From NCBI RefSeq assembly GCF_000244895.1, contig NZ_CM001441.1, forward strand, positions 5,433,417 to 5,497,416: a DNA stretch of 64,000 nt, in the 5' to 3' direction. The notes under the pieces are model-generated. The model had not been told where the DNA came from, did not search any database, and saw only the letters and a program-made list of their open reading frames with translations. This DNA is from Desulfosporosinus youngiae DSM 17734 (GTDB lineage: Bacteria; Bacillota; Desulfitobacteriia; Desulfitobacteriales; Desulfitobacteriaceae). Positions 20,459 to 57,006 of the stretch are shown here, piece by piece. Each line of letters opens with the position of its first letter. Position 1 is the stretch's first letter. The translations under genes were made by a program, and so were the position numbers.

Positions 20459-20474
20459 GGTTTTCACCTCCGGT

Positions 20475-20947: not shown

Positions 20948-20969
20948 TGGTTTCACCCTCCCCCCTGCA

Positions 20970-21744: not shown

Positions 21745-21782
21745 CCTTTCTCACCTCCTTTCCTTATGTGATGCCGTTTCGC

Positions 21783-21965: not shown

Positions 21966-21980
21966 TCTCTTACTCCTCCC

Positions 21981-22232: not shown

Positions 22233-22257
22233 TCTCTCACCACCTTTATGGTTATTT

Positions 22258-22422: not shown

Positions 22423-22425
22423 ATA

Positions 22426-22848: not shown

Positions 22849-22868
22849 CGCTTTGACGGAGGCTTTAC

Positions 22869-23333
22869 ATGGATATTAAAGAAAAAGTGGACAAGCTTAC
22901 ACGCAGATACCATACAAATGAGCCGTTTGAAATTGCTGAACGCAAAAATATCCCCATCATCATCGAACCATTAGGCGATATCTGGGGGTATTGCCATAGT
23001 TACAAGCGAATGCAAATCATTCACCTTAACAGCGAATTGGATTATATTGATCAGCGTTTCAGCTGCGCTCATGAATTAGCACATATTATCCTTCACCCAA
23101 GGATTAATACTGGTTTCCTCCGGATGCATACCTTCTTTTCCGTCGAGCGAATCGAACGAGAGGCCAATTGCTTTGCGGTAGAATTACTTATACCAGACTC
23201 GATGATCAGATCCTATGAGCACATATCCCGATCCATCTATGAGATGGCCTCAATTTGCGGGGTGCCAGAGGAACTGGCAGATTTGAAAAAGATTGAGAAT
23301 CAGCGCACTAAATTTTTTTACCCTTTTCCCTGA
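22869..23333 (+). CDS. ImmA/IrrE-family metallopeptidase
   Basis: A 154-residue zinc peptidase. The HExxH motif is in CAHELAHIILHP, with a downstream glutamate region REANCFAVELLIP, as in ImmA of ICEBs1, which cleaves the paired repressor to induce excision. It follows the repressor gene by 20 bases with GACGGAGG as binding site. The neighbouring repressor is the likely substrate. Confidence 0.9.
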   Translation: MDIKEKVDKLTRRYHTNEPFEIAERKNIPIIIEPLGDIWGYCHSYKRMQIIHLNSELDYIDQRFSCAHELAHIILHPRINTGFLRMHTFFSVERIEREANCFAVELLIPDSMIRSYEHISRSIYEMASICGVPEELADLKKIENQRTKFFYPFP

Positions 23334-23369
23334 ACATACGTTCTATTTATTGAGAAAGGAGGATACATA

Positions 23370-24962: not shown

Positions 24963-25220
24963 CTCCTAAAGGCCAGGATTCAGTTCAGGCTAGCTCGATA
25001 ATCTTAGCTAATGTCTCCGAGCATTGACATTAGAGCGTCCTACTTAAGTGACACTCTGACCCTTCATCGTAGGTTCTGAAGGCAGAATGCTAGCGGCACT
25101 TAGGCTGCTAGAGCGTAATTGTTTTCGTTAACTATTTTTGTCCACCGTTTAACGAGACCAGGTGGAATCTCGACGCGCAACTCTTGCCACCGCTTCCCCG
25201 AGCGAGTCTAAAACGCCCCC
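24869..25220 (-). ncRNA. ssrA: tmRNA (transfer-messenger RNA)
   Basis: A 352-base tmRNA. The 5' end GGGGGCG pairs with CGCCTCC before the ACCA end at 24869, forming the tRNA-like acceptor stem, and the T-arm GGTGCAAGTCCCC is present near the 3' end. The tag frame at 25132-25100 reads VNENNYALAA then TAA; the resume codon is GTT. With SmpB it rescues stalled ribosomes and tags proteins for degradation. smpB lies upstream on the same strand, beyond an IS element. Confidence 0.95.
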
Positions 25221-41752: not shown

Positions 41753-42550
41753 TTAGAACTCGAATTGTTTGCTGCGATAGGCCTTGAGATACTTAACACA
41801 AAAATCATCCCGGCCGGCCAGCGTCTCCGCCGTAATCAAGCTTGCCATCATCATTTTGTCCAGAGGATTAATAATCAGACCATCCAACCCTTTGCCAATG
41901 GCCATTATGGCGAATACATGATTCATGAATTTCCGTTCCGGCAGGCCATAGGATATATTAGACAGCCCGCACATTGTATGAACCCCTTTAAAACGTGTCA
42001 TAATGGCGTCAACTGAATTAATAAATTCTATCGCGTAGGTACTGTTTGTGGAGATCGGCTGAACCAAAGGATCTACATAAATGTTATCCAGGGGCACATT
42101 ATTTTGTACCAGTCCGTTTATAAGTTTGTCGGCAATTCTCAACCGGTCATTCATGGTTTCAGGCATACCTTCATCACTCATACAAAGTGCCACAACTTTT
42201 AAATCTGTGCCTGCAACGATAGGAATCAACTCATCATAACGTTCTTTCTCCAAGGAAATCGAGTTAATCATGGCGACACCTTTGTGTACGGACAAAGCCG
42301 CCTCAATGGCCTTTGGATCAGGGCTGTCAATACAGCAGGGACAATCAACCGCTTCCTGAACAGTTTTCACTAACCAACTCAGATATTCAGGCTCCTTACC
42401 AACAAAGATACCGGCATTGACATCAATATAATTTGACCCGGCCTCGAATTCTTCCTTAGCTACCTTTTGGATATAACCCAGGTCTTGAGCTTTGATAGCC
42501 TCTCCTATGGCTTTACGACTGGCATTAATTAATTCTCCGACAATGATCAT
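41753..42550 (-). CDS. Methyltetrahydrofolate:corrinoid methyltransferase
   Basis: A 265-residue pterin-binding TIM barrel of the MeTr/AcsE/MtvA type. Signature segments: MIIVGELINASRKAI, GSNYIDVNAGIFVG, CCIDSPDPKAIEAAL, MINSISLE, and the C-terminal GVHTMCGLSNISYGLP. It moves a methyl group between a corrinoid protein and tetrahydrofolate. With the corrinoid protein (46905) and the UroD-type gene (53028) it makes a complete demethylase set, so here it probably charges tetrahydrofolate for the Wood-Ljungdahl pathway. Confidence 0.9.
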   Translation of the reverse strand: MIIVGELINASRKAIGEAIKAQDLGYIQKVAKEEFEAGSNYIDVNAGIFVGKEPEYLSWLVKTVQEAVDCPCCIDSPDPKAIEAALSVHKGVAMINSISLEKERYDELIPIVAGTDLKVVALCMSDEGMPETMNDRLRIADKLINGLVQNNVPLDNIYVDPLVQPISTNSTYAIEFINSVDAIMTRFKGVHTMCGLSNISYGLPERKFMNHVFAIMAIGKGLDGLIINPLDKMMMASLITAETLAGRDDFCVKYLKAYRSKQFEF

Positions 42551-42672
42551 TTTCTTTCCTCCTCAACAGCCTTGTAATTCAGCTTTTATACCCGTTTCGT
42601 ATCTTCTCTTTCCTATAACATTGCTAAGATCGCCATAACTACCTCAACCTTCAGCGCCTATTACCGCCGGGC

Positions 42673-43926
42673 TCAGGAGAGTCCGTATCCCTCCAGGAAG
42701 TACCAGATCGGATGGCGCACTTGCACTCCGGTCCCGTGTGCTATCTGGATGTTACAGGTTCCACATTCGGTGATGATCTCCTTGAAATCGGAGGTCTGCA
42801 CTCCACTCTTCACTTTATCAAATAAAGGCTTGCCGATTTGCATTCCTGCAGCATAGTTTTCTTCTTTAAAACTGTAGCTGCCCGATAAGCCGCAGCACCC
42901 GCTGTCCAGATCCTTCACCTTAAAACCCGAAATTAAATGCAATAACCGCACAACCGGAGTTCCGATGCCCTGAGCTTTGAGATGGCATGGAACATGATAA
43001 CCAACAATGTTGGCGGACGGTCGGAAATCTTGGCGGAGCTGCCCTTTCAGGTAAAGGTTCCATAAAAATTCAAATAAATCATAGGTTTTAGCAGTGATCA
43101 TCTTCGCTCCGGGACTGCTATATTTGGGGTATTCCTGTTTCAAACTCAAAGTGCAGCTCGGACAAGAAGCAATAACCGGAATTCCCTGTTCCAAATAGGG
43201 AGCAAATAACCGCAGATTATGCAAGGCATTAGCTTCTGCCTGAGAAAACTGATCATTGGATTGCAAGGGGACCCCACAACAACGGAACCTCGGAGTCAGA
43301 ACAGAAAAACCATTATGCTCTAAAACCTTAACTACGGCTTTGGCCGTCAGGGCATCATTATAGGTCGAATAACATCCCGGGAAATAGATCACTCGCTTGG
43401 GGTTAAGACCAATCTTGGACTTCATCGCAAATTTTCGATGATACTCTGGCAAGGGGGCATTTCGTCCGATTCCCAGAGACTTTTCCATCAACACCCGGAC
43501 TATTTTTTTCTTGAGAACAAAATTCGTAACTGGAGCATAAACCGTCCCCAACATGCCTAAATATTCTGCCCTTCCCAGTACCAGGGCACGGAGACGATAG
43601 CGCAGACTCTTCTTCTTTGTTCCTGAAATGAACCCCTTGCGACGCGCCTCCATAATCAGATCAGTTATGTTAACACTGGAAGGGCAGGTGATCTCACAGG
43701 TTTTGCAATTGGAGCACGCTGCTAGAACTAATGGATCAAAATAAATTCCTTCCAGGCGTAATCGTTCGGCGTCCGGCCCGGCGGCCTTCGGACCCGGAAA
43801 TAAGGTATTAACCCTTGCTACGGGGCACTCTGCTGTACAGGCGCTGCACTTCAGGCAAGCGTCCAATTTTTCTGCCCGGTAAACTGCTTCCATTAATTCT
43901 CCGCTCATCTCTCCCCTTCTTTCCAT
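42673..43926 (-). CDS. glpC: GlpC-like iron-sulfur subunit
   Basis: A protein of about 417 residues. Two 4Fe-4S clusters are visible (CLKCSACTAECPVAR; CSNCKTCEITCPSSVN), followed by two CCG domains (FRCCGVPLQSND; GCCGLSGSYSFKEEN) that bind a cysteine-ligated cluster and pass electrons to quinone or another carrier. It ends the three-subunit dehydrogenase operon. The start is uncertain: ATG 43926, or ATG 43908 just after AGGGGAG. The electron acceptor is not encoded here. Confidence 0.85.
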   Translation of the reverse strand: MERRGEMSGELMEAVYRAEKLDACLKCSACTAECPVARVNTLFPGPKAAGPDAERLRLEGIYFDPLVLAACSNCKTCEITCPSSVNITDLIMEARRKGFISGTKKKSLRYRLRALVLGRAEYLGMLGTVYAPVTNFVLKKKIVRVLMEKSLGIGRNAPLPEYHRKFAMKSKIGLNPKRVIYFPGCYSTYNDALTAKAVVKVLEHNGFSVLTPRFRCCGVPLQSNDQFSQAEANALHNLRLFAPYLEQGIPVIASCPSCTLSLKQEYPKYSSPGAKMITAKTYDLFEFLWNLYLKGQLRQDFRPSANIVGYHVPCHLKAQGIGTPVVRLLHLISGFKVKDLDSGCCGLSGSYSFKEENYAAGMQIGKPLFDKVKSGVQTSDFKEIITECGTCNIQIAHGTGVQVRHPIWYFLEGYGLS

Positions 43927-43953
43927 CCCATCAATTCAAGGCTTCCTTTTGCC

Positions 43954-45159
43954 CTATAATTTACTTCCGGCCAGGTAACCGGTCGTAAGAGCGACTCCGC
44001 CGCCGCAATAATCTGCCCAAGGGTCCCAATGGGCCAGCGAGCGCCCACAGACAAACACATTGTGCAAATAGATTTGGCCATCTCTTTTGAGGGGCTGAAG
44101 TTCCTTGTTCACCTCTATACCCATTTGGGCATAAGGCTGAGGTTCTAAAAAACCCTCGGCTGTCCAAGGCTCAGGCGTAAAGATCGGACAATCAAAGACC
44201 TGCTCCCGGATTGTCTGCGGTCCAACCAAAATTCCTCCTCCAAATAGTCCTCCCGAAGCCAGAACAAAGGACTTGGCTTTTAATTGAAACGTCTCCCCCA
44301 TACTATGAATAGCAATACTTTGACAATAACCATCTTCTATAACGGCTGCTTTGGCTTTGCCGTTGATGATTAATTCCCCGCCGAGATCTTTAAATTTCTT
44401 TCTGAGGAATTGATACAGGTCCATTCCCGTCGGTGAAGGCGGGAAAAGAGTTGGCTCGACAACTGTGCTGCCAAGGGCAGCCAATAGCTCCTGCAGAATT
44501 GGCTCAAATGAAGCACTTAACCCCGGAAACACCAAAACTGCCCCTTCATCCGTCCCTGCCGATTCTTGAATAGTTTCTTGGATGAACCCCCTTAAATAAT
44601 CCGCCCCTTCTTGTGAAGACCAATATCTGGCATAATCCGGGGCAAGTATACTCTTTCCTAAACGATACTGGGCAGCAAACTGCTCCACTTGCAACGGTTT
44701 AAGCGTTACTTTAGCTTTAGGAAAATTGGCTGCCAGATTTGAGGCAAACAATTCCGGAAAAAAGTCCTTCAGCCCGTTGGGGGCTATTAAGATAATCCTC
44801 CTCGCCTTATGCAAAGGCTGAGCAGATAATCTGTGAGGTACATACCCTGCCGTACGGATCTCGCCAAGAGGGGTGAGAACGCTTTCGGCCCTGCCCCATG
44901 AGCCCTGATAAAAAGAACAGATTTCCTGCCACTTGCTTAGGGATTCAAGGGCCTGAGCTTCTGAAATCAGTGAAAAAGGATGCCCGAGGTGATCTCTAAG
45001 AGCTGCAAAATCCCCAAAATCCAAAATCCCGGAAGCATAGGACAGACTGCCTGCCCCTTCGGCTGCCAGAATAACCTTCTTTCCCCGCTCAAGCGCTGTT
45101 ATACCCGCCACTAGACCGGCTAGTCCTCCGCCAACAATAATTCCATCCCACACTATCAT
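43954..45159 (-). CDS. glpB: GlpB-like flavoprotein subunit
   Basis: A 401-residue FAD protein. Dinucleotide-binding GIIVGGGLAGLVAGITALE at the N terminus and C-terminal CGRSLAHWDPWADYCGGG, as in the B subunit of anaerobic glycerol-3-phosphate dehydrogenase. ATG 45159 overlaps the glpA stop (ATGA). It couples GlpA to GlpC and anchors the complex at the membrane in E. coli. Confidence 0.87.
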   Translation of the reverse strand: MIVWDGIIVGGGLAGLVAGITALERGKKVILAAEGAGSLSYASGILDFGDFAALRDHLGHPFSLISEAQALESLSKWQEICSFYQGSWGRAESVLTPLGEIRTAGYVPHRLSAQPLHKARRIILIAPNGLKDFFPELFASNLAANFPKAKVTLKPLQVEQFAAQYRLGKSILAPDYARYWSSQEGADYLRGFIQETIQESAGTDEGAVLVFPGLSASFEPILQELLAALGSTVVEPTLFPPSPTGMDLYQFLRKKFKDLGGELIINGKAKAAVIEDGYCQSIAIHSMGETFQLKAKSFVLASGGLFGGGILVGPQTIREQVFDCPIFTPEPWTAEGFLEPQPYAQMGIEVNKELQPLKRDGQIYLHNVFVCGRSLAHWDPWADYCGGGVALTTGYLAGSKL

Positions 45160-46796
45160 TTCCTCCGATCCCTTGGGCAGGTACTTCCTTCTCCAAAACG
45201 AAGGAGTCCGCCGTATATGCCTCGGGCCAACTCAGTTTCCCTCAGCTGCGCTCCCCAGAGCACCGGACGGATTCCCTTCCAGCGCTGATCCAAAAAGCTC
45301 CGGAGTTCTTCACGAAAAGGTGCGTACTTATTCTTTTCCCGCCTCAACAAAGGCAGCGCCCGGTAACCACAGAAAGCACCCTGGCAAGTTCCCATACCTA
45401 ATCTGGTTTTGCGCCGGATATCTGAAAGGCAATGTACATCTTCATCCGCTACGGTTTTTTCTACCTCGGCTAAACTAACCATTTCACATTCGCACAACAT
45501 CTGCCCTTTAGCGGAATCTGACTCTATGTCATGCAAAATGCCCTCAGCCTCCGAGCCGGCTCTTTCCAGCATCTTGGTTACCGCTCCCCAGGGCAGCACC
45601 TTCTGGGCAAGCTCCTTGAGAGCAGGGGATATTTCAGGCAAAATAGTTTCCTCAGCTGTGCGGCAGGGAAGAAATTTGCCTAACTTATGGGTCACTTGAT
45701 CCGCGGTTCTTTCTGCCATAAGCCGATAAGTCGTAAATTTGCCCCCCACAATACTCAGAAAGCCCGAAACCCCTTGTTCTTGATGATCGATTATGGCAAA
45801 ACCCCGGCTTACTTCCCGGCCCTTATCCGGTGCTTTAGGGTCACTCTGGGTTTCCTTATACAAAGGCCGCACTCCGGCAAAGGCCCGAATGACCCGGAAG
45901 CGTTCTATTTCAGGCAATAAACCTTCGCCCAACTTCATAAGTTTCTCTACATCAGCCACGGCAGGCACATTATCCCCCGGGGAGTTAACGGACTGCGATG
46001 TTGTCCCGAAGACAGTAATACTTTCGTGAGGAACAAATATATCCCCATCTCCAGGCGCACGCAGCCGGTTAATAACCCTCTGGAACAACCTCTGGTTAAA
46101 AGCCAGCAATGTCCCCTTATCAGCCACGACATCCAGGGTCACTCCAACTGTAGCCGCTAACTCCGGCGCCCATGCTCCGGCAGCATTCACCACCACGGCA
46201 GACATTGCTTTAAAGGGTTCCCCTGTCCGCACTAATCGTCCGCACACACCCGTGATACGATTTCCTTCCCGGACCAGCTTTTCGACCTGATGATAGGTTT
46301 TATAGACCCCGCCATAAGCAGCCGCCGAATGGGCATTGGCCCACACTAATTTAAACCCATCCACTGCTGCATCCGGCACTTCAAAGACCCGCACAGCATC
46401 CCGTCTTAAAAGAGGCTCCTGAGCATAGGCATCCTGTAAGGGAATCTCCCGCAGGTCAATGGAGGCTTCTGCGCATTTTTGCAGCCAATTTTCTGTGTAC
46501 TCCGGATCATCCTCAGCCATTTGAACGAACCAGCCACCACATTCGACAATACAACTTGGCGCTATCCGTTTCAGAATACTATTCTCCACAGCACATTCCG
46601 CAGCGGACAAAGGGTCCTTAGCTGCATAACGGGCGCCGCTATGCAAAAGTCCATGAAAGCGGGAACTTGTCCCATGGGCCAGATCCCCCTGTTCCAACAA
46701 CAGCGCAGTCACACCACGCATGCTCAAATCACGCAGAAGCCCGACCCCGGTTGCTCCTCCTCCGATAATGATCACTTCCGCCCAATAGTCGACCAT
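45156..46796 (-). CDS. glpA: GlpA-like anaerobic glycerol-3-phosphate dehydrogenase, catalytic subunit
   Basis: A 546-residue protein from ATG 46796 (MVDYWAEVIIIGGGATGVGL), which follows GGGGGAGAT. It has the FAD motif IIGGGATGVGLLRDLSMRG, GTSSRFHGLLHSGARY, and VGGKFTTYRLMAE of glycerol-phosphate dehydrogenases. The C-terminal BFD-like [2Fe-2S] domain has CECE and GTCQGAFC. It would oxidise a polyol phosphate such as glycerol-3-phosphate to a keto sugar phosphate. The natural substrate in this island is not known. Confidence 0.88.
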   Translation of the reverse strand: MVDYWAEVIIIGGGATGVGLLRDLSMRGVTALLLEQGDLAHGTSSRFHGLLHSGARYAAKDPLSAAECAVENSILKRIAPSCIVECGGWFVQMAEDDPEYTENWLQKCAEASIDLREIPLQDAYAQEPLLRRDAVRVFEVPDAAVDGFKLVWANAHSAAAYGGVYKTYHQVEKLVREGNRITGVCGRLVRTGEPFKAMSAVVVNAAGAWAPELAATVGVTLDVVADKGTLLAFNQRLFQRVINRLRAPGDGDIFVPHESITVFGTTSQSVNSPGDNVPAVADVEKLMKLGEGLLPEIERFRVIRAFAGVRPLYKETQSDPKAPDKGREVSRGFAIIDHQEQGVSGFLSIVGGKFTTYRLMAERTADQVTHKLGKFLPCRTAEETILPEISPALKELAQKVLPWGAVTKMLERAGSEAEGILHDIESDSAKGQMLCECEMVSLAEVEKTVADEDVHCLSDIRRKTRLGMGTCQGAFCGYRALPLLRREKNKYAPFREELRSFLDQRWKGIRPVLWGAQLRETELARGIYGGLLRFGEGSTCPRDRRK

Positions 46797-46904
46797 TTTA
46801 TCTCCCCCAAATATCAAAAGCCGCCAATCCATCCCGGCTAATAATCCCATGTTGGCCGAGATCTCTGGCGGCCTCTTGAATTCTTCCAGCCGTACAGCAG
46901 TACT

Positions 46905-47537
46905 TTAGTCAGACGCTATCAAAGCATTGGCGATTTCAACAGCACTTGCTGCATCCGCAGCGTAAGCATCGGCACCGATTTGATCACAAAACTCCTGAGA
47001 AACCGGAGCACCGCCAACCATAATCTTTGGCTTTAATTTCAGTGTGCGCAAAGTGTCAACAGTATTTTTCATTTGCCCCATTGTCGTGGTCAGCAAAGCT
47101 GATAAGCCAACGATTTGCGGCTGGTATTGTTCAACTGCTTCCACAAACTTTTCTGCTGCAAGATCTACACCCAGATCAATCACCTTATACCCTGATCCTT
47201 CAAGCATGATAACTACCAGGTTTTTGCCAATATCGTGCAGATCACCTTTGACTGTTCCGATAACAATGGTGCCCTTTTCTTTAACATCGGAACTCACTAT
47301 TAGAGTTTTGATGACATCCATACCCGAGTGCATCGCCCGCGCTGCTATAAGAACCTCAGGCACGAAAACTTCGTTATTTTTAAACCTGGGGCCAATGACA
47401 TTCATTCCGGCGATAAGTCCTTCTTCAAGAATTTGAGAAGCACTGCATCCTTCTTCTATAGCCCTTTGGCACAATTCCTTGGTTTCAAGTGCGTCACCTG
47501 CAACAACTGCATCTCTGATTCCGTCTAAGATCTCCAT
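46905..47537 (-). CDS. Corrinoid (B12-binding) methyl-carrier protein
   Basis: A 210-residue protein of the MtaC/MtvC type. An N-terminal helical cap domain (residues 1-85) precedes the Rossmann-like B12 domain, with the base-off lower-ligand motif GDLHDIGKN (DxHxxG), GYKVIDLGVD, GLSALLTTTM and MVGGAPVS. It carries the methyl group on cobalt between the UroD-type and MeTr-type methyltransferases. Activating ATPase (RACE protein) genes are not in the window. Confidence 0.93.
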   Translation of the reverse strand: MEILDGIRDAVVAGDALETKELCQRAIEEGCSASQILEEGLIAGMNVIGPRFKNNEVFVPEVLIAARAMHSGMDVIKTLIVSSDVKEKGTIVIGTVKGDLHDIGKNLVVIMLEGSGYKVIDLGVDLAAEKFVEAVEQYQPQIVGLSALLTTTMGQMKNTVDTLRTLKLKPKIMVGGAPVSQEFCDQIGADAYAADAASAVEIANALIASD

Positions 47538-47597
47538 ATTATTCCTCCTGATGATAGAATTGATATTTCCAAGCTAGCCGAAAGAAGGGGTAAAACG

Positions 47598-48575
47598 TTA
47601 TCTTCTTGGTTTGTCGATAACCTGATAAACCACTACTATGACGATTAGCAAGAACCCTTTAAGAACCTGCTCCATGTAAGTACCCACACCAGACAACGTT
47701 AGAACATTCAATAATAGCTGGAACATGATTGCTCCAAGTACAGTTCCGATAATCGTTCCTTTTCCGCCGATAAGAGAGGTGCCGCCCAGCACTGCTACCG
47801 CAATGGCGGACAATTCAAAGCCTGTTCCCTGGATAGGCGTTATCCGATTCGTCTGACTGCTTAACAGCGGTCCCGCCATGGCAGCTGTTAAACCCGCCAC
47901 TCCGTAAGCCATCAGCTTAATTTTGTTGATATTAATACCCGATATCCAGGCAGCTCGTTTATTGCCGCCCGTGAAATAGATTTCCTTTCCGGTTTTGGTG
48001 AACATCAAGAATATGGAAAGTACCATTCCAACCAAAAGAAATAGAATGATTGGAACAGGTATACCTGCGATTTGGCCCCGTCCCAGCCATAAGTAGAAAG
48101 GCAGGTCATAAAGAAAGATTGATTGTCCTCGGGTAACTACGTTGGCAAGCCCTCCGAAAATTGACATAGTTCCCAAGGTTACCATTAATGAGTTAATCTT
48201 CAACCTGGTTACCAGCAATCCATTAATGATTCCAAGCAGTACTCCCGTAAGGCAGGTAACAACTAATGCCGGTCCCGATCCATATCCGACCATCAGCCCG
48301 CCGGTTACCAGAGATAGAGACATGATAGAACCGATGGATAAATCGATCTCTCCGACTAATAAAACCACGGTTGACCCAATGGCCGCCAATCCCACGATGG
48401 CCGCTAACCTTAAGACATTGAGCAGATTATCTTTTTGTACGAGTGCTGGGACAAAAAAGCCTCCAATAATCATTAACCCGGCTAGAATCGCCAATAAAAT
48501 AAAGTTATGATTCTTTAAAATTGCTTTCCATAAACTTGCTTTGTTAATGTCATTGGTTATCACCATGTTTTCCAT
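47598..48575 (-). CDS. ABC sugar-type permease (RbsC-like), second
   Basis: A 325-residue inner-membrane protein with about ten hydrophobic segments. Family marks: SVVLLVGEIDLSIGSIMSLS-like stretch (STVVLLVGEIDLSIGS), GLLVTRLKINSLMVTLGTM and IAVAVLGGTSLIGGKGTIIG. With the other permease it forms the channel of an Rbs/Lsr-type importer. It follows the ATPase gene by 50 bases. Confidence 0.9.
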   Translation of the reverse strand: MENMVITNDINKASLWKAILKNHNFILLAILAGLMIIGGFFVPALVQKDNLLNVLRLAAIVGLAAIGSTVVLLVGEIDLSIGSIMSLSLVTGGLMVGYGSGPALVVTCLTGVLLGIINGLLVTRLKINSLMVTLGTMSIFGGLANVVTRGQSIFLYDLPFYLWLGRGQIAGIPVPIILFLLVGMVLSIFLMFTKTGKEIYFTGGNKRAAWISGININKIKLMAYGVAGLTAAMAGPLLSSQTNRITPIQGTGFELSAIAVAVLGGTSLIGGKGTIIGTVLGAIMFQLLLNVLTLSGVGTYMEQVLKGFLLIVIVVVYQVIDKPRR

Positions 48576-48625
48576 GTCATAACCCCTTTCCCGCTATTCG
48601 ATCAACGTATTATTCAAGCAGTAGG

Positions 48626-50146
48626 TTAATGATGATCGGCCGAGTGAATAATGTTAAGGATATCTTCTTCATTAAACTCTCTGGTGTTTCTCCGCACTTC
48701 GGAAACAATACTGCCATTAATAACGATGAGAATTTTATCACAGATGCTTAAGAGTTCTCTTATCTCCGGGGAGGCCACTAATAAACTCTTCCCGTTATTC
48801 TTTTCATTAATAAGCAGTTTATAGATTTCATTTTTTGCTTTTACATCGACTCCCCGGGTTGGCTCATCCACAAGGATAATATCTAAATCTCTTAAGAGCC
48901 ATTTGGCAATGACTATCTTTTGCTGATTACCTCCGGATAAATTTTGGACAAATTGATGGATGGTCGGGGTTTTAATCGACAGGGCCTTAACATATTTTTG
49001 GGCATTTTCCTTTAATGTTTTCGTATCAATAAGCTTTAATTTATTGCATATATATTCAAGAGAGCTTACTGCAATATTTTCTTTAACATCAAGGGTTAAA
49101 GCCAGCCCCTCCTTTTGCCGGTCATTGGTAATCATCCCTATTCCTGAGTCTATGCCATCCTTGGGATTCTTAAATTTAACTCGTTTACTTTTTACATACA
49201 TTTCACCCTCATCAAATGTGTCAATTCCTTGGATTGACAGCAGCAGCTCCGTAATTCCAGATCCTTTCAGGCCTGCAAATCCAACGAGTTCACCTTTATT
49301 AAGTTTGAAACTTATGTCCTTGTAGATCCCATGCTTTGTAAGGTTAACCAGATTCAAAACCTCTTGTCCCTGTTCGAATTCGGGATCTTGTTCACCTGTC
49401 CCCAGATCCTCATTAAGAGTTACTCCTAACATTAAGGCAATGATCTCTTTTTCCGACAACTCCCCGGTTGGCATAAGTTCACCAACGTTTTTGCCATCTC
49501 TAAACACCACGATAGAGTCCGATATCTCGATTATTTCCTGGAGTTTATGTCCGATAAATATAATGCCCATCCCATTGGCTTTCAGGTCCTTCATTATTTT
49601 AAAAAGATGATCGACTTCGCTCTTATTCAACGGGGCAGTGACTTCATCAAGGATCAAAATTTTCGGTTTAAGAAACATGGCCTTGGCAATTTCCACAACT
49701 TCCTTTTCGACTAAGGATAAATCTTCAACCTTTTTATCAACGTCAATCTGAAAGCCCAAAAACTCCAGTACCTTTAAACTTTCTTGCTTCATTTTCTCTT
49801 TGTCTAAAACAATCCCTTTGCGGGTAATTTCTTTATTAAGAAATATGTTTTCCACAACGGTCATGTTAGGCACCAAGGTCGGTTCCTGATGCACAATTCC
49901 TATACCTAGTTCTTCCGCAACATTCGGGTCAGATATGGTGACTTTGTTGCCTTCTATAAAAACTTCCCCCTGATCAGGAGTGCAAATACCTGCAATAATG
50001 CTGGATAATGTTGACTTGCCCGCCCCGTTCGTCCCTACCAAGGATACAATCTGCCCCTTCTCAAGGGTAAAGTCTACGCCTCTTAAAGCCTTAACTCCCG
50101 GGAATTCTTTGTGAATGCTTTTCAGAAATAATAAAGGCTTCTGCAT
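48626..50146 (-). CDS. ABC sugar-type ATPase (RbsA/MglA-like), two domains
   Basis: A 506-residue ATPase with two ABC cassettes. The first has Walker A GTNGAGKSTL, signature-region LSLVEKEVVEIAKAM and Walker B ILILDEVTAPL. The second lacks a standard Walker A (FAGLKGSGITELL) but has LSGGNQQKIVIAKWL and IILVDEPTRGVDV. This asymmetry is normal for the RbsA class. It drives uptake through the two flanking permeases. Confidence 0.92.
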   Translation of the reverse strand: MQKPLLFLKSIHKEFPGVKALRGVDFTLEKGQIVSLVGTNGAGKSTLSSIIAGICTPDQGEVFIEGNKVTISDPNVAEELGIGIVHQEPTLVPNMTVVENIFLNKEITRKGIVLDKEKMKQESLKVLEFLGFQIDVDKKVEDLSLVEKEVVEIAKAMFLKPKILILDEVTAPLNKSEVDHLFKIMKDLKANGMGIIFIGHKLQEIIEISDSIVVFRDGKNVGELMPTGELSEKEIIALMLGVTLNEDLGTGEQDPEFEQGQEVLNLVNLTKHGIYKDISFKLNKGELVGFAGLKGSGITELLLSIQGIDTFDEGEMYVKSKRVKFKNPKDGIDSGIGMITNDRQKEGLALTLDVKENIAVSSLEYICNKLKLIDTKTLKENAQKYVKALSIKTPTIHQFVQNLSGGNQQKIVIAKWLLRDLDIILVDEPTRGVDVKAKNEIYKLLINEKNNGKSLLVASPEIRELLSICDKILIVINGSIVSEVRRNTREFNEEDILNIIHSADHH

Positions 50147-50187
50147 AACTATCGTTCACCTTCCTTATCGACCAGGGGTAATCATTC

Positions 50188-51201
50188 CTATTTGCGTGAA
50201 AAAACACGCTGGGATGCCGCCCCAATAATAATCAACCCGATCACGATGGTTTTATACCAGGCTACTAAGCCTATCAGTGACAATATGTTCAACATGATAC
50301 ATAGAATAGCGCTGGCGATAATTGTATTGAAGATCTTACCCTTGCCGCCTTCCAAGGTTATACCCCCAATGACCGCGATCGCTATGGCTATTAATTCGTA
50401 GCCGCTCCCTTGAGTTGTCTCCACCGATTCCAAACGAGAACTATATACCAGTGCAGAGATGCCCGCACATAATCCGCTTAATCCAAAAGCAGTCACCTTC
50501 CAGAACTTTGCATTAATGCCGGAGTAAGTGGCAGCTTTTTCATTACCCCCTGTGGAATAAATCCTATGCCCGACTTTCGTATACTTCAGAACAAATATTA
50601 CTAATACCCCGACCACTAAAAACAAAAGAAAATTTACGGGTAAACTGGCAAGCTTGCTGCTCCCCAGCCATTTTGCACCTTCCAAATTAGTAAGATAAAG
50701 TGAATACCCGCCTGAAAGAATGTAGGATAAACCGCTCAGCACGTATAACATGCCTAAGGTGACTATTAATGAAGGAACTTGGGCTTTTACACTAATGATT
50801 CCGTTTAATACTCCTATCAAGGCACTGATAACCAGGACGAATAAAACGATAAGGTGCAGTCCGTCTACTACGTAATTTCCGCCCACGATTACGTCAGAGC
50901 CGGAAACCGCTAAAATCTTTTTAGTCAGCGCTATGGCCGCTATCGGAGCAAAGGCCATTAAGGCTCCTAAGGACAAATCAATTTCTTTAACGAGCATCAC
51001 CAATGACTGTCCGATCGCCAACAAACCATAAATTGTGATATTGATCAAAATACCCTCAATATTCGTTTTTCCTAAGAAGACTGGTGAAAGAACTGCGCCT
51101 ATCATCAACTCGAATATCAGAATTATGATTAGCATATTATCAATGATCAACTTTGCCCCAGTTCCAGTTCTCCCCTTAATTGAAGCAGTATTACTAGTCA
51201 T
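50188..51201 (-). CDS. ABC sugar-type permease (RbsC-like), first
   Basis: A 337-residue permease from ATG 51201 (MTSNTASIKGRTG), which follows AAGGAGAG; the frame further upstream has no site. It has about ten transmembrane segments, with LVMLVKEIDLSLGALMAFAP, ISVKAQVPSLIVTLGML and IAIAVIGGITLEGGKGKIF. The two non-identical permeases suggest a heterodimer like LsrC/LsrD. Confidence 0.9.
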   Translation of the reverse strand: MTSNTASIKGRTGTGAKLIIDNMLIIILIFELMIGAVLSPVFLGKTNIEGILINITIYGLLAIGQSLVMLVKEIDLSLGALMAFAPIAAIALTKKILAVSGSDVIVGGNYVVDGLHLIVLFVLVISALIGVLNGIISVKAQVPSLIVTLGMLYVLSGLSYILSGGYSLYLTNLEGAKWLGSSKLASLPVNFLLFLVVGVLVIFVLKYTKVGHRIYSTGGNEKAATYSGINAKFWKVTAFGLSGLCAGISALVYSSRLESVETTQGSGYELIAIAIAVIGGITLEGGKGKIFNTIIASAILCIMLNILSLIGLVAWYKTIVIGLIIIGAASQRVFSRK

Positions 51202-51349
51202 ATTGACTCTCCTTATTTTCGTATGAAATAAAGCGAATAAATGAATATTTATAAGTAATTCCTGTATCTGTCGGAAACGGGTTAGTTTACCCGATGGATT
51301 GTCGTACCTTCTCCGCAAGTCAGCAGAGAAGGTACGAGATGGTCAATGT

Positions 51350-52777
51350 TTATTTAAGAGCGGGCCCAAAGGTATACTCATACCATTGTTCGGGTGTTTG
51401 GGTCTGCATTCCGAAGATAACATCACCTTTTTGCGTAACCATTGGAATATTGGGGGTAATTACATCTTGAGGCATTTCCCCTGTTTTGGAGACAATGTTA
51501 AGGAGTACCCGCATACCAATATCTGCGATCAGCGGAGTGTAGGGTGTATTCACTTCAAATAATCCATCTTTGACTTGGGTTACAGCTTCTTTAGAATCGT
51601 CGATGCTTAAGAAGATTATCTTCTTACCATCTTTTCTGCTGTTGAGTCTGTTGGCCATCTTGGCCGCCTCTAGAGCCGCAAGAGCTTCATGATCTCCGGT
51701 TCCAAAGAACATATCAACGTCAGGGAATGCTTGAAGTGCGGACTGGGCGTTGGTAAAGGCTTCTTCTCTGGAATCCGTGTCATGATAGGACTTGAGAATT
51801 TCGATGCCGGGGAAATAACTTAACACTTTTAAGAAATGGCCGGTTCTTACGGCATCAGCAGTACTCCCCAATGGTTTCCTGAGCATGATTGCTTTGGCAT
51901 TTAAGTCCCCTTCTTGGGCTAATTTCCATACAGCATACATGCCTGCTTGGGCTCCATTGGCCGGAAAGTTGCCGGTAATTCTGGACGTGATATCTTTAGA
52001 ACCAGTGGTTCTATCAACGCTTACCACAGGAATGCCTGCTTCCAAAGCCCTGGTAACCGGAGGTCCTGTAGGGGCCTCAACCATTGGCCAAACAAGGATA
52101 CCGTCTACTTTTTGAGCAATAAAGGTGTCCATAATTGACGCCCATTTATTGTTGTCAAACTCTGCATCTTGTACGTTTAATTGAACATTGGAATGTTTAT
52201 CGGCCTCCCATTTGGCGGAATCCGCCCAGTTTATCAGCCACGGATGACTGAAGCCGTGAAACACAACTCCAATATTGTATTTCTTATTGGCATCCCCGAC
52301 CGGTCCTTCAGGAAGGGGTATATAATCAGTGAATGCTAATTTTAAGTCATTTTTACTGAATGGTCCCGTAATTTTAGTCCCCGAACCTTTTGTCCACTCA
52401 AAATCCTGATAGGTTTCGCCTTTAGGGTAGGATTTGCTGTACATTTCGAAGCCCTCATCTTTATAGATTTGGGCAATCTGCTTATTGGCCTGGGATAAAG
52501 GAAGATCTATAAAGAACTTCAATATTTCCGCATCGTTCAGTCCTTTGCTTTTAAGCCCTTCGAAAAACTTAAGAGCTTCCTCTCCTTGAAGATTGGCGAC
52601 TTCCTTATACAGCTGATCAATTTTTTCATTCCCTGATGAAGCAAGTTGTTCCGATGTTTGGCCATTCCCTTTGTCAGCATCTCCAGAGCTGCTTTTTTGC
52701 CCGCAGCCTGCCACAGAGAACATTGTCACAATCATCAGCGCTGCAATTAAAGCCATTGAAAGAACCTTTTTTCTCAT
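51350..52777 (-). CDS. Substrate-binding lipoprotein of the ABC importer
   Basis: A 475-residue lipoprotein with signal sequence and lipobox FSVAGCGQ (Cys near 25). About 130 extra residues (helical, EKIDQLYKEVANLQGEEALK) precede the RbsB-like periplasmic binding fold that starts at YNIGVVFHGFSHPW. The motifs VDGILVWPMVEAPTG and IPVVSVDRTTG are typical. It captures the unknown substrate outside the cell. RBS is AAAGGGGGGG. The upstream 250-base gap holds two small hairpins and no gene. Confidence 0.9.
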   Translation of the reverse strand: MRKKVLSMALIAALMIVTMFSVAGCGQKSSSGDADKGNGQTSEQLASSGNEKIDQLYKEVANLQGEEALKFFEGLKSKGLNDAEILKFFIDLPLSQANKQIAQIYKDEGFEMYSKSYPKGETYQDFEWTKGSGTKITGPFSKNDLKLAFTDYIPLPEGPVGDANKKYNIGVVFHGFSHPWLINWADSAKWEADKHSNVQLNVQDAEFDNNKWASIMDTFIAQKVDGILVWPMVEAPTGPPVTRALEAGIPVVSVDRTTGSKDITSRITGNFPANGAQAGMYAVWKLAQEGDLNAKAIMLRKPLGSTADAVRTGHFLKVLSYFPGIEILKSYHDTDSREEAFTNAQSALQAFPDVDMFFGTGDHEALAALEAAKMANRLNSRKDGKKIIFLSIDDSKEAVTQVKDGLFEVNTPYTPLIADIGMRVLLNIVSKTGEMPQDVITPNIPMVTQKGDVIFGMQTQTPEQWYEYTFGPALK

Positions 52778-53027
52778 TTTAACGCCCCCCCTTTAATTTC
52801 CTAAGAATCACTGAGCCTAGTAACTTGTTCAGCTAAACCTGAACACCAAGACTTTCGCCAAAGTCCTTCTCATAAAAGGAACATTCTGTGACGAAAGAGA
52901 ACTCTCTCTGCTCTTACCACGCCCCTTTCTTCACATCTTTCCTACTAAAATATTTCGGATTTGATTCCGCGCAAGATCCATAGTTTAATGCTGCAGCTTC
53001 CAGGCTTTGGCGTCTCATTCGATCAAA

Positions 53028-54086
53028 TCAATAGTTGTTCACTGTTTCATACATAGCAATAATGTTTTCCAAAGGAGTATCTTGCTGAATCCTATGTGAA
53101 GGACTAAAGAAATACCCTCCCCCTTTGCCCAAAACATCGATCGTTTTCTTCACCAGTTCTCTTATCTCTGCCGAACTGCTCTTGGGTAAATCCATTTGAG
53201 TATCTATCGCACCATGAAAGGTTAATTTATCCCCGAACCGTTCTTTCAATATCTTGATGTCCATATCTTTGGCAGACGTTTGGATCGGATCCAAAACTTT
53301 AACACCTAAATCAATGAAATCCGGAATCAAGCTAATGACGCTGCCGCACGAATGTAAAATCAAGGTAGCACCATATCTGTCGGCGAGCTCAGTTAGTTGT
53401 TTTAAACTGGGGGCAAAAAATTTAAGAAACATGTTTCTGCTAATTAAAAGACTGTTTTGGGTTCCGAAATCATCTTTATAAAATAAAAAGTCAATCTTCC
53501 CGTTGGCTTGTTGGAGCATCTTTTCATAATAGTCAACTAAAAACTTAGTTATATGGTTGATTGTTTCTAACATCAGCTCTTCATTTAACGCTAAATTTAT
53601 CATGGTTTTTTCCATGCCAAATAAATAGGTCAGCAAGTGAAATACACCATGGTATCCTTCAGCGTGTATTCCTGGAGTGGAAATCGCATACCCTTCAAAT
53701 TGATAACACTTACTTTCTATCTGGCTAAAATCATACAAATCGACAGTCGGCCATTTGTGATTTCTAACCTCTTCAACCTTATCAACGTCACTGAAGGGTG
53801 AATAATTAACATAGACATCCCGACTTATTTCCGTAATCAGCTCCCGGCGACCAACCCCCCAAATATCCAGTTCAGTCCCATCGTCCAATTTTTTGAGTGC
53901 TGGTCCGATATAATCCGGAATAACCTCCCGAAAATCAACGTTTAAATAATCAAGCAATTCATAATAATCCTTTTTGTAATAGTTACATACGTCAGCAATA
54001 ACTTTATCCGTGGCTCTAAAATTTATCGGGCACCGGTCCGGTTCTTGATGATTGAGTGACATTAGAACTCGTTCTTTGGCATTCAT
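53028..54086 (-). CDS. UroD-family corrinoid methyltransferase (MT-I candidate)
   Basis: A 352-residue protein starting MNAKERVLMSLNHQEPDRCP behind TTGGAGGATAT. It belongs to the uroporphyrinogen-decarboxylase superfamily that includes MtaA/MtbA and the O-demethylase subunit MtvB. A probable zinc/substrate region is LILHSCGSVISLIPDFIDLG, with FHGAIDTQMDLP and FFSPSHRIQQDTP near the end. Probable role: moving the methyl group from the imported compound to the corrinoid protein. It is not the haem enzyme, given its context. Confidence 0.85.
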   Translation of the reverse strand: MNAKERVLMSLNHQEPDRCPINFRATDKVIADVCNYYKKDYYELLDYLNVDFREVIPDYIGPALKKLDDGTELDIWGVGRRELITEISRDVYVNYSPFSDVDKVEEVRNHKWPTVDLYDFSQIESKCYQFEGYAISTPGIHAEGYHGVFHLLTYLFGMEKTMINLALNEELMLETINHITKFLVDYYEKMLQQANGKIDFLFYKDDFGTQNSLLISRNMFLKFFAPSLKQLTELADRYGATLILHSCGSVISLIPDFIDLGVKVLDPIQTSAKDMDIKILKERFGDKLTFHGAIDTQMDLPKSSSAEIRELVKKTIDVLGKGGGYFFSPSHRIQQDTPLENIIAMYETVNNY

Positions 54087-54126
54087 GTTGATATCCTCCA
54101 AGCTAGTTGATTTTCGAATTTAATCG

Positions 54127-55677
54127 TTATTGAACATGATACTTGTATAAAAGCGCGTGAAGATCATCCATCTCTTTGGTCAGATTTTGATAAACACGCT
54201 GCCTTATGGCAAAGAACTCTTCATACATTTCGTGGATTTTTTGATCCGGTTCTATAGTGCCTGTGGTTTTAACAATGTCCTTGAGCGGATCGATAATATT
54301 ATCATAAATTCCTGCTCCTTTGGCTGCCAGAATTGCATCTCCCAGGGGAGCCGCTTCATTTATGTTCGTTGTTTCTAAAGGAATGTTGATGACGTTTGCT
54401 GTTATCTGATTCCAAAAAGCACTTTTGGTTGGTCCGCCATTTAAGATCAGCTTATCGATTTTCACCCCGGCTCCGATGGCGATTTTTACGTTTGAGTAAA
54501 GATCGAAGGCGATGCCTTCAATGATTGCCCTGATCATATGGGCCCGCGTTGTTCTAAGGGTTGTCCCGAAAAAGACGCCCTTGGCATTTGAATTCCAGTT
54601 AGGGGATAAGGTATTTCCTAAGAAGGGCAGGAAGAGCTGACCATCTGCACCTGGGCTAACCCTATCTGCCTGCTTGGTCAGCAAGTCATATTCATTGATG
54701 CCCGCCCGGTTGGCAATTAATCTCTCGTCATCGCCAAACATGTCTGCAAACCACTTAAGGGAAGCGCCGGTGAAAGCCATTGGACCATCAAACATGGTTA
54801 AACCTGGTATAACGTGAGGCCATTTTAAGATTCTATACTCATGTACTCTCTGTTCAGTAGGGATAATAATGCCCAGGTTAGATCCTGTTCCCATAGAGTA
54901 GAATGCCTGTCCGGCAACCGTAACCCCACTCCCCAATGCAGCCGAACTTATATCGGTTCCACCTGCCACTAACAGAGTTCCCTTTTTAAGTCCTGTTTCT
55001 GAGGCGGCTGCAGAGGTGACCTCTCCGACTACCTCATAAGAACGATAAATCTTGGGATATTTCTCGATTGGAATCCCGATAGCATGGGCTATTTCCGGAT
55101 TCCATCGTTCATTCTGATAATCGTAAGGATAAAAGAGTCCCGCATCTCCCGTGTTAATTGTAAATTCGCCGCATAACTTATATGTGCAATAACCGGCCGG
55201 AGATAAGAATTTATAAGTTTTCTCAAATAGTTCCGGTTCATGGTTTTTCATCCAAAGAGCTTTTGGTTCAATAAACCAGGGAGCGATTCTGTTTCCGTTA
55301 TTGAAATTGATCTTATCCTCGCCAACTTTAGTACGAATTTCCTGGCACTCGGCTTCTGATCTGGAATCCATCCAGATCATGCCAGGGCGAATAGGTCTTC
55401 CGTCCTCACTGATTGGCAAGGTAACACCCACTAATCCCGAGATACCAACGGCGGCTATATTTTCTGCATAAGGACCTTGCTCAAGGCATTGCTTGATGGC
55501 TGCTACCACTGCTTTCCAATAATTATCTCCTTCTTGTTCGGCATACCCTGGTTTTGGCAGGAACAGCGGGTGTTCTTGAAAGCCTGAAGCAACTACAGTA
55601 TTCGTCCTTGTATCAAGAATACAAGCCTTTACATTGGTTGTTCCGATATCGATTCCTAAGGTTAAATGTCCGCTCAT
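54127..55677 (-). CDS. FGGY-family carbohydrate kinase
   Basis: A 516-residue kinase of the xylulokinase/glycerol kinase family. ATG 55677 (MSGHLTLGIDIGTTNVKACI) follows AGGGGG. It has the phosphate-1 loop GIDIGTTNVKA, the SGLVGVTLPISEDGRPI region, VAGGTDISSAALGSG, and the adenosine motif ILNGGPTKSAFWNQI. It phosphorylates a sugar or polyol in the cytoplasm; exact substrate unknown. LsrK is also in this family. Confidence 0.9.
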   Translation of the reverse strand: MSGHLTLGIDIGTTNVKACILDTRTNTVVASGFQEHPLFLPKPGYAEQEGDNYWKAVVAAIKQCLEQGPYAENIAAVGISGLVGVTLPISEDGRPIRPGMIWMDSRSEAECQEIRTKVGEDKINFNNGNRIAPWFIEPKALWMKNHEPELFEKTYKFLSPAGYCTYKLCGEFTINTGDAGLFYPYDYQNERWNPEIAHAIGIPIEKYPKIYRSYEVVGEVTSAAASETGLKKGTLLVAGGTDISSAALGSGVTVAGQAFYSMGTGSNLGIIIPTEQRVHEYRILKWPHVIPGLTMFDGPMAFTGASLKWFADMFGDDERLIANRAGINEYDLLTKQADRVSPGADGQLFLPFLGNTLSPNWNSNAKGVFFGTTLRTTRAHMIRAIIEGIAFDLYSNVKIAIGAGVKIDKLILNGGPTKSAFWNQITANVINIPLETTNINEAAPLGDAILAAKGAGIYDNIIDPLKDIVKTTGTIEPDQKIHEMYEEFFAIRQRVYQNLTKEMDDLHALLYKYHVQ

Positions 55678-55766
55678 TTGCAAAAACCCCCTAAATTTTT
55701 ATTTCGAGAATCTTTTCTCTAAATTAAATTAACTTTTGCACTTTTTAAACTACGGAGACCTAAGGT

Positions 55767-56690
55767 TTACGGTAATAACAATTTCTTAGCGATACTAGTA
55801 TCCGTTATCAGAGTGTTAATCACCCCACTCTTCAGAGCAGCCCGGGTTGCACAAATCTTTTTTTCACCATTGCAGATTGCCACCGTATTTTTAATTTTCT
55901 TAAGGGACTCTATGCTGACATTAATGATTCGATCCTGAATTTTGTTTGGTACCAGGTTTCCATTAACATCTATGAAGTTGGAATTGATATCCCCCACAAC
56001 ACCTAAACTCTTTAAGTAGTCTATATCTTCAACCGTAATTTCCTTTGTTTTATAGATCGTTATATCGGAATCTATGTAGCCAATAGGTACTATTACTAAA
56101 TCCAAACTTTCAAATTGGTCAACGATCTTTTTGATAATGCTTTCTTTTAAAAAGATCTCTTTGCTGGCTTGAGAATCGAGGATAGCCGGACAATTTAAGA
56201 TATACCCGGTGGCACCTAATTTGCTGCTGAGTGAGGATACAATAGCATTAGCATGAATATCATTGGAAATCAGACCGGATCCGCCAATTGCCGGGAAAAT
56301 CTTCATGCTGTATTCTTGAGTGGCCGTCATTTTTTCTACGGTACCTTTAATCGTCCGTCCCCAGCCAACGCCTATTTTCATTCCTTTCTTAAAGTATCTA
56401 TCGATGACCGAATTTAGTGCATTCCCAAACCCACTGTATAAAATCTCCATAGAATCTGAGGTTGGCAGAATAATGCATTGCTTTAGCCCGAAATTTCTCT
56501 CTAACTTTATTTCGAGTTCACTGAAATCCTGGGGAGGTGCATGCAATTCAATTTTTACGATTCCTTCCTCCCGAGCCTTCATCAGCATTCTGTAAACTTT
56601 AACCCGCGAAATATTGAGATGTTTCGCGATTTCCTGCTGATTCATATGCTCTTCATAATATAATCTCGCTACTTTTAACAAAAAATCCAT
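55767..56690 (-). CDS. SorC/DeoR-family transcriptional regulator
   Basis: A 307-residue regulator. N-terminal helix-turn-helix (YYEEHMNQQEIAKHLNIS, RVKVYRMLMKAREEGI) followed by a sugar-binding domain with GVGWGRTIKGTVE and the C-terminal VAICNGEKKICATRAALKSG. The family responds to sugar phosphates. It is the first gene of the catabolic operon and is transcribed with it. A palindromic operator and strong promoter lie just upstream. It is not CggR-like in context. Confidence 0.92.
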   Translation of the reverse strand: MDFLLKVARLYYEEHMNQQEIAKHLNISRVKVYRMLMKAREEGIVKIELHAPPQDFSELEIKLERNFGLKQCIILPTSDSMEILYSGFGNALNSVIDRYFKKGMKIGVGWGRTIKGTVEKMTATQEYSMKIFPAIGGSGLISNDIHANAIVSSLSSKLGATGYILNCPAILDSQASKEIFLKESIIKKIVDQFESLDLVIVPIGYIDSDITIYKTKEITVEDIDYLKSLGVVGDINSNFIDVNGNLVPNKIQDRIINVSIESLKKIKNTVAICNGEKKICATRAALKSGVINTLITDTSIAKKLLLP

Positions 56691-56791: not shown

Positions 56792-56937
56792 TAGTGTGCC
56801 AATTCCCTTTATTCTGCGAAGAAGGAATATTTTTATACAACTGCTTTCCATACTCTGACCTAAGACCCTGATTGTGGCTGTAACTAATTTGGAACATTTG
56901 AGCAACTCAACCTTAGCGAAACTATTTTTTGCGCAAT

Positions 56938-56981
56938 AAACGATGGGTGCAGGAAGATCAATCTTCCTGCACCCATCGTTT
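56938..56981. terminator. Bidirectional terminator after rpoN
   Basis: Perfect 21-base arms (AAACGATGGGTGCAGGAAG.. and its complement) with a two-base loop, followed by T-rich sequence on both strands. It isolates rpoN from the catabolic island. The rest of the 56691-57006 gap holds the promoter and operator and no gene. Confidence 0.85.
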
Positions 56982-57006
56982 GTTTGTATAACACTCTTTT
57001 CCGCCC

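Follow-up and report, generated by a model that had tools for sequence, protein, structure and literature searches.

Three-component corrinoid demethylases, such as the MtvB, OdmB, VdmB and MtoB systems and Cdm for chloromethane (PMC13222342), combine a UroD-type methyltransferase I (MT-I), a corrinoid protein and a methyltransferase II (MT-II), and act on methoxy-aromatics or haloalkanes. PMC13222342 places in the UroD family not only haloalkane enzymes but also clades without a known substrate. Here, we describe a block of 12 open frames, all on the minus strand, at positions 41753-56690 of a 64,000-nucleotide stretch (the window; contig NZ_CM001441.1, positions 5,433,417 to 5,497,416) of the genome of Desulfosporosinus youngiae DSM 17734 (G000; 5,660,978 bases, one contig). 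The block holds the same three methyl-transfer components and adds to them a CUT2 (ribose-type) importer, an FGGY carbohydrate kinase, a SorC-family regulator and the GlpABC subunits of an anaerobic glycerol-3-phosphate dehydrogenase. Judged from its genes, the block likely serves to use an O-methylated polyol or sugar without oxygen. It is probably a carbohydrate version of the three-component corrinoid O-demethylases and bears on the anaerobic demethylation of O-methyl sugars.

Algal, plant, and bacterial glycans often carry methylated sugars and polyols. In porphyran-degrading aerobes, a cytochrome P450 demethylates 6-O-methyl-galactose, so that a sugar methyl ether is removed for the normal pathway (PMC10033563, PMC12316285). 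This route requires oxygen and gives formaldehyde, whereas the block is predicted to be corrinoid-dependent and oxygen-free; PMC12316285 describes the anaerobic demethylation of galactose residues as not elucidated. Rhizopine (L-3-O-methyl-scyllo-inosamine) catabolism in rhizobia (mocDEF, mocB) likewise uses an O-methyl polyol, in this case a cyclitol; mocDEF is a part of it (PMC3538637, PMC10107442), and a ferredoxin oxygenase complex is named in the reference list of PMC10107442. It employs a ferredoxin oxygenase where the block employs a corrinoid, and no FGGY kinase is listed in the Rhizobium lentis stretch that was viewed. Type 1 mlp clusters of Firmicutes share with the block a UroD-superfamily methyltransferase and a corrinoid protein. 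According to PMC10418091, these clusters have several Mlps (Mlp2 and Mlp3), an activase, no tetrahydrofolate methyltransferase and almost always His-Cys-Cys ligands. The block differs in having a single UroD, a MeTr and a His in the third position and in having no activase, and so lies outside this type. Among the matches listed in the open-access literature, in which subscription papers are mostly missing, there was no corrinoid system for methylated carbohydrates.

The block opens with the SorC-family (Sugar-bind) regulator (55767..56690; PF04198, E 9.8e-62), whose best NCBIfam match is DeoR, under the cut-off. The FGGY kinase, a distinct subfamily with the motif ISGLVG (54127..55683; PF00370/PF02782), and the UroD-family methyltransferase, the predicted MT-I (53028..54101; PF01208), follow. 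The importer comprises a substrate-binding lipoprotein of the Peripla_BP_4 family with a long N-terminal extension (51350..52777; PF13407 over residues 169-428), a double ATPase (48626..50146; PF00005 in two stretches) and two BPD_transp_2 permeases (permease 1, 50188..51318; permease 2, 47598..48575; both PF02653). Next comes the corrinoid protein (46905..47537), with a B12-binding and a cap domain (PF02310, PF02607) and the sequence DLHDIG, which is the usual D-x-H-x-x-G cobalt-ligand motif. All three GlpABC subunits exceed their curated cut-offs: GlpA (45156..46850; TIGR03377, 652.6 bits vs 552.8), GlpB (43954..45159; TIGR03378, 188.4 vs 174.15) and GlpC (42673..43926; TIGR03379, 314.4 vs 279.9). 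The last gene encodes the Pterin_bind protein MeTr, the predicted MT-II for transfer from methylcorrinoid to tetrahydrofolate (41753..42550; NF005719, 340.3 bits vs 259), and a single strand block hence contains the URO-D, B12-binding and Pterin_bind families of a three-component corrinoid methyltransferase set. The starts of GlpA (near 46796), permease 1 (near 51201) and UroD (near 54086) are probably internal to the listed open reading frames (ORFs), as judged by comparison with relatives. All 12 genes named in the initial annotation are real and on the same strand, and their family matches agree with the names given there.

A nine-gene core in the order SorC, FGGY, UroD, binding protein, permease, ATPase, permease, corrinoid protein, MeTr is present in all four genomes that carry this UroD. 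These were found, at a threshold of E <= 1e-90, among 398 genomes of the phylum sampled evenly from a larger group, and are the host and three Thermincolaceae (G091, G208, and G261). The core of G208 is broken within UroD across two contigs, the second of which is identical over 10174 bases with a Thermincola ferriacetica record (L060). A pattern scan for close relatives over 84,980 species gave 69 loci, with a UroD identity of 80% in two (L001, which is the same contig as in G261, and L060 over the last 60 residues) and of at most 53% in the best segment of the remaining loci. Within 82 genomes of the class, this UroD occurs in the host alone, other matches being at most 43% identical. The Thermincolaceae orthologues are 76-79% identical for SorC and 71-73% for the corrinoid protein. 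Since three further genomes preserve this gene order, the genes of the block are more than chance neighbours. The initial annotation had proposed looking for the gene set elsewhere and had named as the contrary outcome a kinase/importer part and a methyl-transfer part that are always separate; the two parts are united in 4/4 genomes with this UroD.

The best evidence that the substrate would be a polyol or sugar methyl ether is an apparent swap of chemistry in aerobic Sinorhizobium. A search with the kinase protein over 72,556 plasmids gave 1112 records, two of them with an identity above 60%, from Sinorhizobium mexicanum and S. terangae (both 67.2%); the next best among the other 28 matches listed was 37.2%. 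Six cluster kinases (window, three Thermincolaceae, and two Sinorhizobium) form one tree group with a support of 100/100, and read ISGLVG or LSGLVG at the motif. Both plasmids also encode the importer, with 49% identity for the binding protein, 34-40% for the best permease pairs and 38.5-39.7% for the ATPase. In the operon (L278 and L279, about 11165-23341), this kinase and importer are joined by oxygenase genes resembling mocDEF and by a gene like that of formaldehyde dehydrogenase, and the two 31.5-kb stretches contain no match at 1e-3 to UroD, the corrinoid protein, MeTr or SorC. The one-strand run of S. mexicanum consists of a Rieske ferredoxin, the binding protein, two permeases, the kinase, the ATPase, a fatty-acid-desaturase-type protein, a ferredoxin reductase, a Zn alcohol dehydrogenase, an alpha/beta hydrolase and LysR. 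A counterpart of its desaturase-type protein, with 34.6% identity, occurs in the R. lentis stretch, which is annotated with a MocE-family ferredoxin, a flavin adenine dinucleotide (FAD) oxidoreductase, a pyridoxal phosphate (PLP)-dependent aminotransferase-family protein and a sugar-binding protein; this one locus of moc-like annotation has the same oxygenase gene set as Sinorhizobium. In rhizopine catabolism, mocDEF takes off the methyl group. The same kinase and importer thus accompany two unrelated chemistries, one oxygen-based and one corrinoid-based, both compatible with demethylation, which points to a polyol or sugar methyl ether.

Given the MocDEF-like set, O-methyl inositols such as pinitol were considered; no inositol enzyme was seen by eye, most Sinorhizobium ORFs being without a family search. 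The window binding protein scores far under the rhizopine model NF052284 (37.6 vs 420 bits), and its AlphaFold2 (AF2) model, built from three sequences, has a mean predicted local distance difference test (pLDDT) score of 43.7. Residues 1-165 of this protein form an extension ahead of the ribose-binding domain, alignable with Sinorhizobium from residue 97.

From the gene content, its linkage, the aerobic swap and the genes for carbon monoxide dehydrogenase/acetyl-CoA synthase (CODH/ACS) in the host, the following substrate class, reactions, regulation and order of steps are proposed. The CUT2 importer would take in the O-methylated polyol or sugar, UroD would pass its methyl group to the Co(I) of the corrinoid protein, and MeTr would hand the methyl on to tetrahydrofolate (THF), after which methyl-THF would join the Wood-Ljungdahl route. 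The FGGY kinase would phosphorylate the carbon skeleton, on either side of demethylation. GlpABC would then oxidise a polyol phosphate resembling sn-glycerol-3-phosphate; the electrons would go to the membrane, and the resulting triose or ketose phosphate would enter glycolysis. The substrate of GlpABC may have shifted, the branch being long. SorC would sense the phosphorylated compound. The initial annotation had likewise suggested that a methylated carbohydrate is imported and demethylated to methyl-THF and that the rest is phosphorylated, and this core idea has good genomic support, from the linkage in four genomes and the aerobic oxygenase swap.

The CODH/ACS genes lie elsewhere in the host genome and score over their cut-offs, so that a route for methyl-THF exists in the host. 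This genome also contains 13 MeTr-like matches, the block MeTr included, and 23 matches to the corrinoid cap domain. In a tree, the window MeTr groups with paralogues of its own genome, the nearest being 90% identical, while the Thermincolaceae orthologues are 66% identical. MT-II has therefore been exchanged for a native paralogue but retained, and its retention by such recruitment suggests that the pathway requires the passage of methyl groups to folate.

The arrangement of GlpABC differs between the window and the Thermincolaceae, yet its linkage to the core persists. In the three Thermincolaceae genomes, glpP-glpA-glpB-glpC is divergent and upstream of SorC, with GlpP (glycerol-3-phosphate antiterminator family) confirmed in 3/3, and in the window GlpABC sits between the corrinoid gene and MeTr. 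Within this family, glpA (E <= 1e-60) was found in 3/3 genomes with the cluster and 0/6 without it, a coincidence of 1 chance in 84 by simple arithmetic for nine genomes, which is weaker when limited to genomes at least 90% complete (3 + 3 genomes). The host has one full GlpA, that of the block (a second match covers residues 445-502 only), and GlpA is found in 23/29 genomes of the genus. The stretch downstream of rpoN, inspected in ten sister genomes, is a variable slot in the genus. In five sisters, glpABC is joined there by a channel gene and an FGGY kinase (one truncated by the stretch end), and in two by a glycerophosphodiesterase and an ABC importer; one short stretch has the phosphodiesterase and importer part only, and two sisters have an FGGY kinase without glpABC. 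The sister channel (L170) and glycerophosphodiester phosphodiesterase (L173, L174) exceed curated cut-offs. The sister glpFK-glpABC units for glycerol utilisation resemble the block in occupying the same slot after rpoN and in GlpABC; they possess a facilitator and a glycerol kinase, in place of which the block has a CUT2 importer, another FGGY kinase and methyl-transfer genes. Because the slot carries various glycerol and glycerophosphodiester modules in the genus, the adjoining gap gene, which the initial annotation had read as a link to glycolysis, is not evidence for one.

The GlpABC nearest to that of the window is in G035 (84, 71, and 78% identical for A, B, and C; L233 6416-10946, G035:C117). 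A 118-residue remnant of CUT2 permease 2 lies directly upstream of it, and the 40 kb covered by L233 and L256 contained no further match to the cluster. A recent joint transfer of GlpABC with the core is unsupported, as the window GlpA fails to join the Thermincolaceae clade. Composition gave no clean horizontal island, with a gene G+C of 0.38-0.52 around the window mean of 0.449.

As a special case of the proposed pathway, the substrate could be an O-methyl ether of glycerol, and sn-glycerol-3-phosphate would then enter GlpABC. This case is possible, though we consider it unlikely. It is in keeping with the GlpABC scores above the curated cut-offs, with GlpP beside GlpABC in three genomes, with the glycerol and glycerophosphodiester modules of the sister slots and with the fact that no additional carbohydrate enzyme was seen in either version of the operon. 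However, larger polyols fit the CUT2 importer equally, we know of no abundant natural methyl glycerol, and the kinase is without the glycerol kinase motif. The block kinase, the only FGGY kinase of the host genome, is below both the xylulokinase cut-off (TIGR01312; 334.4 vs 380.25 bits) and the glycerol kinase cut-off (TIGR01311; 164.3 vs 590.35 bits). Four sister kinases (L169, L170, L175, and L257 beside the G018 GlpABC) pass the glycerol kinase cut-off (757-776 bits). Seven sister glycerol-kinase rows, two of them identical and with family tests for L170 and the L257 sequence, read ITNQRET at the kinase motif position, and a verified xylulokinase (L239) reads LSGQMHG there. Since the NQRET motif is missing from the block kinase, glycerol itself is not an obvious substrate of this enzyme, and its candidacy as the direct kinase substrate is weakened.

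A second alternative concerns the nature of the methylated atom, on which UroD bears. The UroD AF2 model (mean pLDDT 94.2) matches the folds of HemE and the methanogen methyltransferase MtaA (4ay7) about equally (Z 27.0-26.8, root-mean-square deviation 3.0-3.1, ~300 residues), so that the fold alone is uninformative on function. No characterised O-demethylase is in the best 50 fold matches, which proves nothing. CdmB was reached by sequence weakly only (E 0.0008), and a single-sequence PDB search gave nothing at 0.001. UroD is below all listed methyltransferase cut-offs, and its best NCBIfam matches, coenzyme M (CoM) methyltransferases, are far below. In a profile alignment to 4ay7, the HSCG of UroD corresponds to HICG and its SPSH to APGCG, setting H250, C252, and H336 against the H-x-C...C of MtaA; the third ligand position is thus His336, where MtaA has the Cys of its GCGI motif. 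D211 and H250 are invariant in an alignment of 39 sequences, the window included, H336 is at least 90% conserved, and many UroD relatives have Asp at the position of C252. In the UroD tree, from which references of the MtvB/OdmB/VdmB type are absent, the window UroD stands apart from the three host UroD genes in clusters with a corrinoid protein and MeTr. According to PMC10418091, S-methyltransferases have His-Cys-Cys and O-methyltransferases lose one or both Cys. His336 weakly favours oxygen over sulfur, the support being weak because HemE also has a His there (4wsh and 3cyv rows).

A methyl group on sulfur or nitrogen, as in a methylthio- or methylamino-polyol, is improbable. Relatives of UroD do include S-methyltransferases (PMC10418091), one Cys ligand, C252, is retained, and the viewed Ruegeria relative of the Sinorhizobium oxygenase adjoins amino-acid importer and sarcosine oxidase genes. 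The third ligand is nevertheless a His, not the Cys of the His-Cys-Cys S-enzymes of PMC10418091, and the genes of the aerobic counterpart are similar to mocDEF, which serves the use of rhizopine, an O-methyl compound.

Two neighbouring functions could also share one operon, an importer, kinase and GlpABC unit for an unmethylated polyol and a methyl-transfer unit for some other substrate. In sister genomes, GlpABC does accompany other modules in this slot, and an FGGY match occurs at only 7/69 pattern-scan loci (L001 included). Such a division is quite improbable in view of the order kept in four genomes, the position of the UroD gene between the kinase and binding-protein genes, and the Sinorhizobium plasmids, where the same kinase and importer are accompanied by apparently different demethylation chemistry. 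That UroD is a second MT-II, or works in reverse to methylate a sugar or thiol from methyl-THF, is very hard to credit: such methyl-transfer reactions can be reversible and the best NCBIfam matches are CoM methyltransferases, far below cut-off, but the block already has a MeTr, its aerobic analogue has a formaldehyde-dehydrogenase-like gene, and a dedicated importer, kinase and dehydrogenase imply catabolism.

The pairing of UroD with sugar genes extends beyond this block. In class stretches, 51 UroD genes were counted and their neighbours within 6 kb noted. Some of these genes were not among the 43 class matches but lay in the retrieved stretches; G002:C51:71342 (L271), whose region was truncated, L256, and L257 were left out. 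A UroD gene was called sugar-linked, by similarity alone, if a CUT2 or FGGY gene was nearby; L258 was so counted though its importer looks nucleoside-type, and L250 is closely related to L251. A corrinoid gene accompanies 16/23 sugar-linked UroDs in a frame-free recount (14/23 by ORF overlap, an opposite-strand ORF having masked the gene in L244), or 11/14 when counted by cluster, and 21/28 of the others. The chance expectation for a random gene is ~9%, by arithmetic from the density in G002 (35 corrinoid cap-domain matches over 5.3 Mb). The pairing is about equally frequent in both groups, and the point is that sugar-linked UroDs pair too.

Several of these clusters indicate candidate substrates. 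A candidate O-methyl-xylose cluster (L239 2915-12673, G035:C32) contains a xylose isomerase (720 vs a cut-off of 533), a ROK regulator, a CUT2 importer, UroD, a corrinoid protein 61% identical to that of the window and a xylulokinase (605 vs 380). A candidate O-methyl-galactose cluster (L244 5684-18735, G001) contains a CUT2 importer, UroD, a corrinoid cap domain, a second UroD, an aldose-epimerase-like gene, GalT, GalK, GalE and a ROK-like regulator, with galactokinase, GalT and GalE exceeding curated cut-offs. Two candidate O-methyl-rhamnose clusters (L266 2049-14428 and L260 1-11377, G002) join L-rhamnose genes to UroD, a corrinoid protein and a CUT2 importer. In L266, L-rhamnose isomerase passes its cut-off (612 vs 531), rhamnulokinase is below (485 vs 528) and an aldehyde dehydrogenase is present; in L260, RhaB-like and RhaM-like frames are partial and below cut-off. 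L247 (G002) has a ribulokinase (663 vs 428) and a partial AraD-like frame. Most sugar-linked UroD clusters are in G001 and G002. On the UroD tree, the sugar-linked label changes 13 times against a shuffled mean of 19.7, with 1/500 shuffles as low, and is thus more clustered than chance would give. We regard it as somewhat more likely than not that modules of a UroD-type methyltransferase and a corrinoid protein are an all-purpose system for handling O-methylated carbohydrates without oxygen, attached to different sugar routes (xylose, rhamnose, galactose, arabinose, and FGGY/GlpABC). They would then be the anaerobic equivalent, so far missing, of the P450 and MocDEF-like demethylases.

A separate unit of UroD and corrinoid protein, mostly with MeTr, is found at L118 9238-11930 and in L263, L265, L268, L269, L272, and L274-L276. 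Relatives of the L118 UroD are 76-92% identical and occur in several class members; this unit is likely another demethylase. In the window itself, a strong inverted repeat between rpoN and SorC (56937..56982; a 20-pair stem with 10 G-C pairs) is a possible terminator, and a promoter-like site with a 10/12 match lies at 56791-56763; such stem and promoter-like sites are no commoner than in shuffled expectation (totals of 33 vs 32.9 and 18 vs 18.2). A tmRNA (24869-25220, minus strand) is the only Rfam match in the window at the gathering threshold, and the ARAGORN output does not include it.

A number of observations pull the other way for the proposed pathway and its wider form. The block contains no activase gene; AcsV/RamA-like genes elsewhere in the genome, which match their models below curated cut-offs, could act as one. 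The kinase does not carry the NQRET motif of the sister glycerol kinases. In the GlpA tree the window copy falls outside the Thermincolaceae clade, on a long branch and without a settled position, and GlpABC, though tied to the module, may partly be a legacy of the slot. The two Sinorhizobium stretches have no GlpA, GlpB or GlpC match at 1e-3, and the GlpABC step is thus not a universal one. The best family for their ferredoxin is MocE at 109.6 bits, below the cut-off of 136.15, and their dehydrogenase is best matched by S-(hydroxymethyl)glutathione dehydrogenase (class III alcohol dehydrogenase-like) at 470.2, below 543.95. The closest other relatives of the oxygenase, at 40%, are from Ruegeria, and the one locus viewed adjoins ferredoxin, amino-acid importer and sarcosine oxidase genes, not sugar genes. 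In the class, MeTr is near only 2/23 sugar-linked UroDs (14/28 of the others), some sugar-linked clusters are without a corrinoid gene, and sugar-linked UroDs are scattered over the tree, at least 12 changes being required. This scatter makes the substrate unreadable from phylogeny, and assignment of the substrate from the UroD tree was rejected.

Aerobes use oxygenases for the removal of such methyl groups. If the proposed pathway is true, anaerobes would use corrinoid methyltransferases, and the methyl group would end as methyl-THF for energy metabolism, not as formaldehyde. The gene clusters named here would then be concrete candidate enzymes for the anaerobic demethylation of O-methyl sugars.

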